64,000 nucleotides of DNA from assembly GCF_000739595.1 (NCBI RefSeq), contig NZ_BBJP01000004.1, forward strand, positions 1-64,000. The letters run 5' to 3'. Both the position numbers and the translations under genes were made by a program. This DNA comes from Halorubrum halophilum. Lineage in GTDB: Archaea; Halobacteriota; Halobacteria; Halobacteriales; Haloferacaceae. Positions 14,211 to 51,356 of the stretch are shown here, piece by piece (the first letter of the stretch is position 1; every line of letters begins with the position of its first letter). Below the pieces are notes generated by a model. That model saw only the letters and a list, made by a program, of their open reading frames with translations, made no database searches and was not told the origin of the DNA.

Positions 14211-14789
14211 CGGGGGCGGTCGAGAGCGGGAGTGAGCGTTGGAGATCGGCGATGAGATTCGGTATTTAAACGGCACTGAGCAGCGGCGACAATCCGTTAT
14301 AAATGAACGAGGCGGTGGCGCGCGCCTCCGAGCGGGCCGTAGACCCGCGAGGAGCGTCGCGCGAGGGAGTCGCTGGCGCCTTATAAGGCGCCAGCGACAG
14401 GGCGAGAGCGAAGCTCTCGCTTGCAGCCGGACGTAGTCCGGCGACGAGGCTGGGGAGGCGTGAGGTGCGGGGCGGTTGCGGGCGGGTGGGGCTCAAAGGG
14501 GCAGGCGGCGAGGCGGGCGCAGGCGTTCACGAGAGCGAAGCTCTCGTGAGCCAATCAGAACGCGAAGCGTTCTGATGACGACACAAGCACCGCAACGAGG
14601 GAGCGAACGACGTGAGCGACTGAGTGAGGAGCGCAGCGAGCGTGCGCCCGCCTCGCCGACTGGGGCTTTGGAGGTGTTCGCCGCAAAGTCGCTAATCACT
14701 CATAAACAGTCGACAGTAACACCACTCGATCATGTATACACAACCACTCACCCAACCCGATATACCTACACCCGCTATCGATCAAGAGG
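14211..14789 (-). mobile_element. Dispersed hairpin-rich element, copy A
   Basis: The longest of three related copies, lying in the opposite orientation to the other two. Its right end (14771-14788) reads CTCTTGATCGATAGCGGG on the minus strand and its left end (14218-14233) reads GGTCGAGAGCGGGAGTG on the plus strand, so the ends form a terminal inverted repeat. Perfect hairpins inside are 14507-14520 with 14644-14657 (14 pairs), 14369-14380 with 14387-14398 (12 pairs), 14402-14409 with 14413-14420, 14426-14432 with 14436-14442, 14527-14536 with 14540-14549 and 14554-14563 with 14567-14576. No protein is encoded. I see no clear target duplication, and boundaries are good to about ten bases. 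Confidence 0.72.
14312..14690 (-). ncRNA. Candidate structured RNA core of element A
   Basis: Read on the minus strand, the core starts after a TTTATGAG box with GAACACCTCCAAAGCCCC, enters the long outer stem, and ends near GGAGGCGCGCGCCACCG, as in copies B and C. The pairing of arms is kept although arm sequences differ from the other copies. Expression is not shown; the fold could instead act at DNA level. Confidence 0.4.
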
Positions 14790-28041: not shown

Positions 28042-28512
28042 CGATCTTGATCGATTGCGGGAGTGGATATAGCAAATTGGTGGAACGGTTATTTATAAGC
28101 GATCGAGTGATGTTGCTGGCGGCTGTTTATAAGCGATCGACGGCACTGCGGTGAACACCTCCAAAGCCCCAGCCGTTGCGGGCGGCGCACGCTCGCTGCG
28201 CTCCTCGGTCGCTCGTTACACTCGCTCCCTGCGGTGCTTGGGTCGCCTGCGCCGCCCGCAACGGCTGCCCCTTTGAGTCCCACCCCGCACCGCAACCGCA
28301 CAGCCTCACGCCTCCCCAGCCTCGTCGCTGGCGCCGACGGCGCCAGCGACTCCCTCGCGCGGCGCTCCTCGCGCCCTACGGCCGCTCGGAGGCGCGCGCC
28401 ACCGCACAGCCGGGTCCATTTATAAGCGATCATCGCAGCCGGTTATCACTATTTAAATATTGTATTACTGCCGACAAGCTGCAACACGCACTCTCGCTAT
28501 CGATCACTGCTG
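28042..28512 (+). mobile_element. Dispersed hairpin-rich element, copy B
   Basis: The left end reads GATCGATTGCGGGAGTG (28049-28065), and the right end is CACTCTCGCTATCGATC (28489-28505), its inverted partner. A perfect 18-base stem joins 28171-28188 to 28249-28266. A second perfect hairpin is 28324-28335 with 28339-28350 (12 pairs). TTTATAAGCGATC occurs three times (about 28091, 28125 and 28420). The element fills nearly the entire spacer between the ThuA and PHP genes. It has no coding evidence. Confidence 0.72.
28148..28415 (+). ncRNA. Candidate structured RNA core of element B
   Basis: Starts about 20 bases after a TTTATAAG box that could be its TATA element. It shares GAACACCTCCAAAGCCCC, the outer long stem, GGCTGCCCCTTTGAG and the second hairpin with the other copies. 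The loop of the long stem is highly conserved between copies while the arms vary together. Confidence 0.4.
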
Positions 28513-28561
28513 CGTCTGTACTGACCGCCTCCCGGTTAGCATGTCTCTCTTGCTAAGGATT

Positions 28562-29344
28562 TCAACAGATTCTCTCCAACCGGACGGGCTCTAGGCCGCG
28601 CCGGTCCAGTTCGGCCTCGATCTCGTCGAGCCGGGGCGCGATGACCGCCGGCTCGTGGCTGTCGGTGCCGACGCTCACCCGGAGGCCGGCGTCGACGATC
28701 CGGTCGAGGAAGGCGGGCGCCGGGTGGAACTCCCCGTAGTCGTCGAGCAGGCGCCCGGCGTTGATCTCCGGGACGGTCCGCGAGCCCCGGAACGCCTCGG
28801 CGACCGCGGCGTAGTGGTCCTCGGTCGCGAACCCGCGGAGGTGCGGGTTGCGCTCGATCAGGTCCGGATGCGCGGCGATCGCGAACAGCTCAGCGTCGAT
28901 CAGCGCGACCAGCTTCTCGAAGTACCGGTCGACGAGCGCCCGTCGTTCGTCGGCGGGTTTGTCGGCGAAATGCGAGCGCGTGTGGACGTTCGCGCCGTCG
29001 AGCTCGTGGACGCTCCCGATCGCGTAGTCGAATCCCGCCTCGTCGAGGAACTCCGCGATCGCCCCCTCGTGGGCGGGGTCGTAGTCCATCTCCGCGGCGT
29101 CGTACACGTCGATATCGACGCTGGAGTCCGCGCGGACTTCTTCGATCGCCTCGCGTCGTCGCTCGTAGGTCAGATCGAGGTTGAAGCCGAGCGCGCGCTT
29201 GAACCGCGCCGCGCTCGGGTCGGGCGAGACGTTGCAGTGGTCGGCGATTCCCACCCCGTCGACTCCCGCGTCGGCGGCGGCGTTCACCATCTGGCGGAGG
29301 AACGCGCCGTCCGAGTAGTTCGTGTGGACGTGGTAGTCGTGCAC
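28562..29344 (-). CDS. PHP-domain phosphoesterase
   Basis: A 260-residue metal-dependent hydrolase with the PHP signature MHDYHVHTNYSDGAF at the start, IADHCNVS (about 33-40), DAAEMDYDP, IGSVHELDG, AIAAHPDLI and GTDSHEP near residues 232-238. These give the trinuclear metal site of the histidinol-phosphatase-like group. Histidinol phosphatase is a possible role, since hisC is in the window, but distance makes this weak. The end of the gene lies ~50 bases from element B. Confidence 0.88.
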   Translation of the reverse strand: MHDYHVHTNYSDGAFLRQMVNAAADAGVDGVGIADHCNVSPDPSAARFKRALGFNLDLTYERRREAIEEVRADSSVDIDVYDAAEMDYDPAHEGAIAEFLDEAGFDYAIGSVHELDGANVHTRSHFADKPADERRALVDRYFEKLVALIDAELFAIAAHPDLIERNPHLRGFATEDHYAAVAEAFRGSRTVPEINAGRLLDDYGEFHPAPAFLDRIVDAGLRVSVGTDSHEPAVIAPRLDEIEAELDRRGLEPVRLERIC

Positions 29345-50888: not shown

Positions 50889-51356
50889 CTGCGGCGATTG
50901 ATAGCGGGAGTGTGTGTAGTACGTCTCAAGTGTGATTGTTTATCAGTGATCGAGTGGGCTTGCTGTCGGCTGTTTATAAGCGGTCGATGGCTCTGCGGTG
51001 AAGACCTTCAAAGCCCCAACCGGTAAGGCGGGCGCACGCTCGCTGCGCTCCTCAGTCGCTCGTTTCACTCGCTCCTTGCGGTGCTTGTGTCGCCTGCGCC
51101 CGCCTTACCGGCTGCCCCTTTGAGTCCCACCCGCCCGCAACCGCACCTCACACCTCCCCAGCCTCGTCGGTCGCCCGTCGCTTCGCTCCGGACGACCGAC
51201 TCCCTCGCACGACGCTCCTCGCGCCCTTTGGGCGCTCGGAGGCGCGCGCCACCGCCGCGTTCATTTATAAGAGATCGGCGCTGTCGCTCAAGTCTTTTTA
51301 AATATGCTCCCGCCACCGACGATCTGCAGTACATACTCCCGCGACCGCTCAAGAGC
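50889..51356 (+). mobile_element. Dispersed hairpin-rich element, copy C
   Basis: The left end GATTGATAGCGGGAGTGTG (50896-50914) is inverted at the right as ACTCCCGCGACCGCTCAAGAG (51335-51355, partial match). A perfect 17-base stem joins 51020-51036 to 51095-51111. A second hairpin has arms 51166-51173 and 51193-51200 with extra inner pairs. TTTATAAG boxes lie near 50978 and 51263. Same orientation as copy B. It encodes no protein that I can support. Confidence 0.72.
50996..51262 (+). ncRNA. Candidate structured RNA core of element C
   Basis: Starts downstream of TTTATAAGCGGTCGAT. It shares CAAAGCCCC, the loop of the long stem and GGCTGCCCCTTTGAG with copy B, but has a different arm sequence (CCGGTAAGGCGGGCGCA) that still pairs perfectly. 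Expression is not shown. Confidence 0.4.

Follow-up and report, generated by a model that had tools for sequence, protein, structure and literature searches.

The window analysed here, the whole 64,000-nucleotide stretch of a Halorubrum halophilum contig (NZ_BBJP01000004.1, positions 1 to 64,000), carries three dispersed copies (A, B and C) of a hairpin element, and these three places are the only ones that a covariance model built from 45 copies of the hairpin, B and C among them, matched along the window's full length. The long stem of the original prediction was placed to the nucleotide in copy B (18 pairs) and in copy C (51020-51036 with 51095-51111, 17 pairs), and the arms given for copy A (14507-14520 with 14644-14657) are also real, lying in reverse orientation relative to B and C. 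Followed along the window's minus strand, the core of copies B and C runs from the P3 hairpin through the P2 hairpin and a G-rich linker to P1 and a 3' tag, and each copy sits in a unit bounded by terminal inverted repeats (TIRs). The features are:

28049-28505, no strand assigned: TIR-bounded carrier unit of copy B, with GATCGATAGCGGGAGTRGGTRT at 28049-28070 and its inverted copy at 28484-28505
28092-28134, plus strand: two TTTATAAG(CGATCG) boxes upstream of core B (28092 and 28127), seen in the sequence and in a positional histogram over copies
28161-28284, minus strand: P1 rod hairpin of copy B, supported by covariation and by the covariance model (129.1 bits, E 1.8e-23, B being in the training set)
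28162-28166 with 28271-28275, minus strand: P1 base helix CAAAG/CTTTG of copy B
28171-28188 with 28249-28266, minus strand: variable P1 stem of copy B, with a GGG/GGG internal loop below it and the tandem-G.A rod between its arms
28276-28323, minus strand: linker between P2 and P1 of copy B, CGAGGCTGGGGAGGCGTGAGG...GGGGTGGGACT, conserved across Halorubrum copies
28324-28350, minus strand: P2 hairpin of copy B, GTCGCTGGCGCC-GAC-GGCGCCAGCGAC, hypervariable in sequence between copies, with covarying pairs P2.5 and P2.7
28356-28400, minus strand: P3 hairpin of copy B, with outer CGCGC/GCGCG and inner CTCC/GGAG helices (P3a:11/P3b:17, E=0.008)
28419: third TTTATAAG(CGATCG) box, downstream of core B
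28506-28572, minus strand: right outer transposon-like end of copy B, with GAATCTGTTGAAATCC at 28557-28572; its junction is visible against empty sites
14218-14783, no strand assigned: TIR-bounded unit of copy A, with extra hairpins and both outer ends recognisable
14485-14671, plus strand: P1 rod of copy A, with two extra perfect hairpins inserted at about 14524-14577 (covariance model 61.5 bits, E 3.3e-10)
50896-51350, no strand assigned: TIR-bounded unit of copy C
51008-51131, minus strand: P1 rod of copy C (covariance model 130.5 bits, E 9.7e-24, C being in the training set)

Read on the minus strand, P1 is a rod of about 120 nt in which 2-bp Watson-Crick steps lie between symmetric GA/GA internal loops. 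At its base an invariant GGG/GGG internal loop sits between CAAAG/CUUUG and CAGYCG/CGRCUG, a GNA triloop forms the apex in 115 of 147 copies, and the tags at either side are fairly conserved (5' GGYGGGACU; 3' GAGGUGUUC-like). The segment between the long arms had been described as a loop that is nearly the same in all copies; it is indeed near-constant, but on the minus strand it is a covarying rod rather than a loop. Nearly every 2-bp step of this rod has changed on both sides in some copies (5 to 21 of 45, depending on the step), the GA/GA mismatch loops are 96-99% invariant among copies, and the GGG/GGG and GA/GA columns together are 96-100% conserved. P2 occurs in about 60 distinct listed sequences with pairing kept in nearly all of them, the linker takes the form TCGGCTGGGGAGG in other genera, and a candidate closing stem (GCGGTG/CACCGC) may enclose the whole core. 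Possibly by chance, the P1 5' tag (GGTGGGACTGAAAG) looks like the 3' half of what we take to be a common haloarchaeal CRISPR repeat (GTGGGATTGAAGC). Small stereotyped perfect palindromes (e.g. ACGAGAGCTTCGCTCTCGT and ATCAGAACGCTTCGCGTTCTGAT) are inserted within P1, P2 or P3 of some copies, at 14524-14577 of the window, at loci L017, L025, L046, L154 and L377 and in another genus too; they are similar to the SMRs of Haloquadratum but shorter. Of 220 scorable copies, 8 (L043, L153, L154, L158, L159, L209, L228 and L250) have the rod interior of P1 inverted with respect to the base stem.

We assessed covariation with our own R-scape-like implementation in Python (not R-scape itself), which uses a G-test with average-product correction and a null in which the substitutions of each FastTree branch are re-placed. 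Ten pairs reached E<=0.05 in a core alignment of 150 copies from about 30 species, nine of them proposed P1/P2 pairs and one within P3; the top 11 pairs (E<=0.09) of a structure-free MAFFT alignment of the rod alone (147 copies) all fell on a single helix diagonal; and the top 12 pairs (E<=0.07) in an alignment of 71 Haloferacaceae copies from genera other than Halorubrum likewise shared one diagonal, all these E-values being approximate because gene conversion between copies would blur the tree. That the top pairs sort onto the helix is a stronger statement than the E-values. In a pair-counting control 98.0% of cells were paired, a value equalled in 0 of 500 shuffles and falling to 30-43% when the partner was slid by 1-3 columns. 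Thus, the proposal that arms which differ while their pairing is kept are a sign of selection on structure is borne out by tree-aware covariation in the Halorubrum alignments and across other genera: the suggested collection of homologues and R-scape-type test returned significant covarying pairs beyond phylogeny in both, which is what defines a structure-conserved nucleic acid.

Complementarity might instead arise with no selection at all, if template-switch (quasipalindrome) correction or the insertion of palindromes kept the arms matched, and the whole-hairpin swaps at orthologous sites, the perfect palindromes nested in copy A, L017, L025 and L046, and the 8 inverted interiors among the 220 scorable copies are the kind of event that such processes leave behind. 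Correction would, however, erase mismatches, yet the GGG/GGG loop and the tandem G.A mismatches are kept in 96-99% of copies; moreover, many changes hit one to three pairs per branch, and the strand asymmetry described below is not accounted for. Neither correction nor local palindrome duplication, the latter being the alternative that the original prediction had set against its own claim, therefore fits, and we regard the palindrome-correction reading as largely refuted and very improbable. DNA-level palindrome dynamics (whole-hairpin swaps, nested palindromes, the 8 inverted interiors) are superimposed on selection. These analyses show that the element is a structure-selected, strand-specific, dispersed family whose shape is preserved while its letters change.

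One-sided departures from pairing point to the selected strand. On the CAAAG...CTTTG (pyrimidine) strand A·C outnumbers G·T by 123 to 34 (p=5e-13), an excess which implies that wobble pairs are favoured on the complementary minus strand, and this asymmetry is not mutation bias, since G>A (0.040) and C>T (0.036) are nearly equal in unpaired columns. Among the top pairs from other genera, G·T (33) outnumbers A·C (15) when the structured strand is read. Moreover, GA/GA mismatches make sense solely on the minus strand. Minus-strand folding energy (MFE) is lower in 130 of 130 copies, but dinucleotide shuffles shift equally, so that this measure does not discriminate the strands. Wobble asymmetry and minus-strand GA/GA loops together favour a folded single strand over a strand-neutral cruciform and show that what is selected is the fold of the window minus (purine-rich) strand in single-stranded form, as RNA or ssDNA. 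Of the two forms first envisaged, RNA or extruded DNA, a single folded strand (RNA or ssDNA) is retained, whereas the double-stranded cruciform is disfavoured by the minus-strand-specific selection.

The family is large and widespread. A conserved 15-mer, CCTTTGAGTCCCACC, has 137 matches with at most one mismatch in the genome as against 0 for the reversed control, so the copies are not chance, and a single genome may contain as many as about 140 members of the family. BLAST of 28148-28415 against the same genome gave at least 40 long matches (best 40 of 251 candidates), together with 9 short ones that are self-complementary. An exact 17-mer was found in 32 of 33 Halorubrum genomes and, as a single match, in one further genus of the family, with no match in the remaining genomes searched in the order Halobacteriales; a collection scan returned, among the matches listed, 80 named contigs, all from Halorubrum. 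The rod covariance model R1 reached further, matching 50 of 52 Halorubrum genomes (many with at least 69 candidates), 88 of 119 genomes and 21 of 28 genera of the family Haloferacaceae, and 100 of 155 genomes and 41 of 57 genera of the order Halobacteriales, where E-values are rough and the order-level matches outside the family are model matches apart from one inspected Haloarcula plasmid copy. The family-level matches whose sequences were inspected keep the GGG/GGG base and the rod, and many keep the P3-P2-P1 order. Plasmid matches are few, with one full-length copy on the Haloarcula plasmid (98 bits) and three more on two Halobaculum plasmids. A Halorussus plasmid (L443, about 1460-1555) has a P3-P2-like module and a GTCGGTTGGGGAGG linker without P1, which suggests that the domains are separable. 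Viral contigs of IMG/VR and the phages searched gave no match, Rfam had 0 matches in the window at gathering score and a single chance match (E 0.19) in a permissive scan, the searchable literature (subscription papers aside) held no description of the element, and it is unannotated in the annotated records checked. This haloarchaeal hairpin repeat family is thus apparently undescribed so far.

In the H. halophilum genome some copies travel within a carrier. The TIR pattern occurs 87 times (0 in the control) and pairs into 46 units, mostly with the repeats about 440-530 bp apart, and beyond the TIRs lie degenerate outer ends, GGCTCTGTTGAAATCC. Compact ends of this GGCTCTGTTGAAATCC type (about 65 bp each) also bound unrelated cargo of about 120-1300 bp (window 28557-28572; L301, L303, L304, L308). 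Several of these elements carry 8-bp direct repeats, and most lack a recognised transposase; the GGCTCTGTTGAAATCC-bounded elements are a non-autonomous carrier family. An IS6-family transposase considered as the source of the TIRs is present, but the copy inspected ends in GTGTTCAGATAAG, not GGCTCTGTTGAAATCC. At the site of copy B, 8 relatives have the flanking genes 31-97 bp apart and no element; the insertion in the window touches the 3' end of a convergent gene, and a direct repeat is not resolvable there.

The carrier has TIR pairs of its own, and other elements that share its outer ends have 8-bp direct repeats; the whole element might accordingly be an ordinary non-autonomous transposable element (MITE/PATE) with the hairpins merely its ends, as the 46 TIR-paired units, those direct repeats and the absence of copy B from 8 relatives would suggest. 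The core, however, also exists without the carrier: among fully flanked copies of this genome TIRs lie on both sides in 42 and on neither side in 64, and with 97 copies from elsewhere these 64 make up the TIR-less cores. When core-only loci were set against their orthologous sites in three close species (28 comparisons, with overlap between some loci), a core was retained in 23; these cores are ~77-84% identical as against about 92% for the flanking genes, with stems compensated or replaced. Conserved orthologous sites of this kind, an order-wide covarying internal structure left unexplained and a described Halorubrum PATE of different sequence (Halorubrum virus HRTV-DL1/lacusprofundi, tried as the same element; rod model, best 4.8 bits) make this reading improbable.

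Genomic context was scored with our own gene caller. Among 203 Halorubrum copies, 99 lie between convergent genes, 24 between divergent genes and 40 in each tandem orientation, and the TIR form is between convergent genes in 44 of 66 cases. This bias would suit extragenic 3'-region hairpins acting as bidirectional terminators, in mRNA stability, or as gyrase/SMC sites between convergent genes, but any insertion is expected to be depleted from promoter regions, both orientations are used equally, the selection is single-strand-specific, and the 23 contexts in other genera, unlike those in Halorubrum, comprise 10 divergent and 7 convergent gene pairs; we consider such a role unlikely. The equal use of the two tandem orientations (40 versus 40) also speaks against a cis-regulatory leader. 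The proteins flanking 5 rod loci, inspected by eye, are ordinary, with no transposase or other partner recognised. Inverted twin rods occur at 6 of 31 family-level loci in other genera (five with spacers of 24-30 nt, one of 273 nt) and also at the chosen loci L400-L404, always with the 5' tags facing.

The more serious rival, close behind the reading that we prefer below, is a structured ncRNA transcribed from the minus strand, whose copies would be paralogous RNA genes or SINE-like RNA and whose tandem G.A rod would bind a protein. Strand-specific wobble tolerance, conserved non-Watson-Crick motifs, the conserved order of three domains and the persistence of copies at orthologous loci would all be natural for an RNA, as would the conserved TATTTAAA box found about 40 nt upstream of P3 (minus strand) in 40 of 55 TIR copies. 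That box is, however, rare in core-only Halorubrum copies (7 of 106), and inspection by eye revealed no promoter upstream of the rods in other genera. The TTTATAA box that had been put forward as the promoter is likewise not supported, being not seen in other genera, and its spacing would put the start inside P3. Inverted twins, furthermore, place one rod antisense in any transcript, and there is no orientation bias relative to genes. We hold the ncRNA reading to be possible, with appreciable weight but well short of an even chance. Some core-only copies (e.g. L005, L047, L087) have upstream tandem units of ~57 bp, each with a TTATAAA box and GGTGAACACCTCCAAAGCCCCAGCCGCTCG, the latter being the reverse complement of the P1 3' tag.

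We lean, with somewhat less than even confidence, towards a REP/REPIN-like non-autonomous repeat that would be recognised as folded single-stranded DNA. The purine-rich strand would fold as P3-P2-P1 in ssDNA, for example at the replication fork; a candidate structure-specific enzyme, such as an HUH/Y1-type transposase, would recognise the folded strand; and this recognition would maintain the fold while the stem letters drift. Some Halorubrum copies would hitch-hike on the TIR carrier, and copy B probably reached its site in this way. Covariation beyond phylogeny in three alignments, single-strand specificity, invariant GA/GA loops and GNA triloops, orthologous core-only copies that keep the fold, high copy number and order-wide spread all favour the REP-like reading. 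DNA is preferred to RNA because of the lack of orientation preference, the 99 of 203 convergent placements, the inverted twins with facing 5' tags, the absence of a promoter by eye in other genera and the 3'-tag tandem repeats of core-only copies. Against it stand the ordinary genes at the flanks inspected by eye, with neither transposase nor partner, and the 10 of 23 divergent contexts in other genera, unlike Halorubrum; core-only copies mostly stay at orthologous sites, so that the core itself need not be mobile; and G.T tolerance, tandem G.A, GNA loops and the conserved P3-P2-P1 order fit RNA too. A bolder reading, which we hold with rather less confidence, is that these elements form an order-wide haloarchaeal class of nucleic acid served by a recognition system of their own. 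Its hallmark would be a single-stranded rod in which 2-bp steps alternate with tandem sheared G.A pairs, preserved by structure-specific selection in as many as a hundred or more copies per genome, and it would have no counterpart in known RNA families or transposons.

If the element acts as ssDNA, it would point to a structure-specific archaeal transposition or maintenance enzyme comparable to the REP/RAYT pair; if as RNA, archaea would have an abundant and widespread class of RNAs whose tandem G·A rod is unusual. On either reading it offers a natural test set, orthologous loci included, for compensatory evolution that keeps a fold during sequence turnover, and model R1 can be used to annotate it.

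Among known haloarchaeal repeats, PATEs are marked by short palindromes close to their termini, which are related to IS605 ends; they share with this element a non-coding, palindrome-rich, high-copy nature and frequent hits by other palindromic inserts (PMC3119063, PMC10544981). PATE/IS605-type ends come without TIRs or target duplication, whereas the TIR form here has TIRs. The SMRs of Haloquadratum are 80-110 bp long and lack target duplications, and SMR-A/B and the MITEs of that genus resemble the TIR carrier in having terminal inverted repeats around short non-coding units (PMC3119063). The present units differ in their length of ~457 bp, in outer ends that are accompanied by 8-bp direct repeats on other elements, and in a core that is independent of TIRs. 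Integron attC sites are recognised as a folded bottom strand, with variable stem sequence and conserved unpaired bases; the likeness would be one of working principle alone, as the haloarchaeal element has no arrays, no integrase seen and a different fold. REPs are generally described as strand-asymmetric hairpins with tags beside a variable stem. In place of their GTAG/CGTC-type tag and 20-40 bp, the haloarchaeal element has the tag GGYGGGACTSAAAG and a ~120-nt rod, and it further differs from REP/BIME/REPIN elements in its extra domains P2 and P3, its invariant tandem G.A steps, its archaeal host and the lack of a RAYT by eye at the flanks of 5 rod loci. It shares with these bacterial, RAYT-associated repeats the high-copy, intergenic, palindromic character (137 motif matches, with the scored copies between called genes), the inverted pairs with short spacers, the conserved tags beside a variable stem and the strand-asymmetric hairpin.
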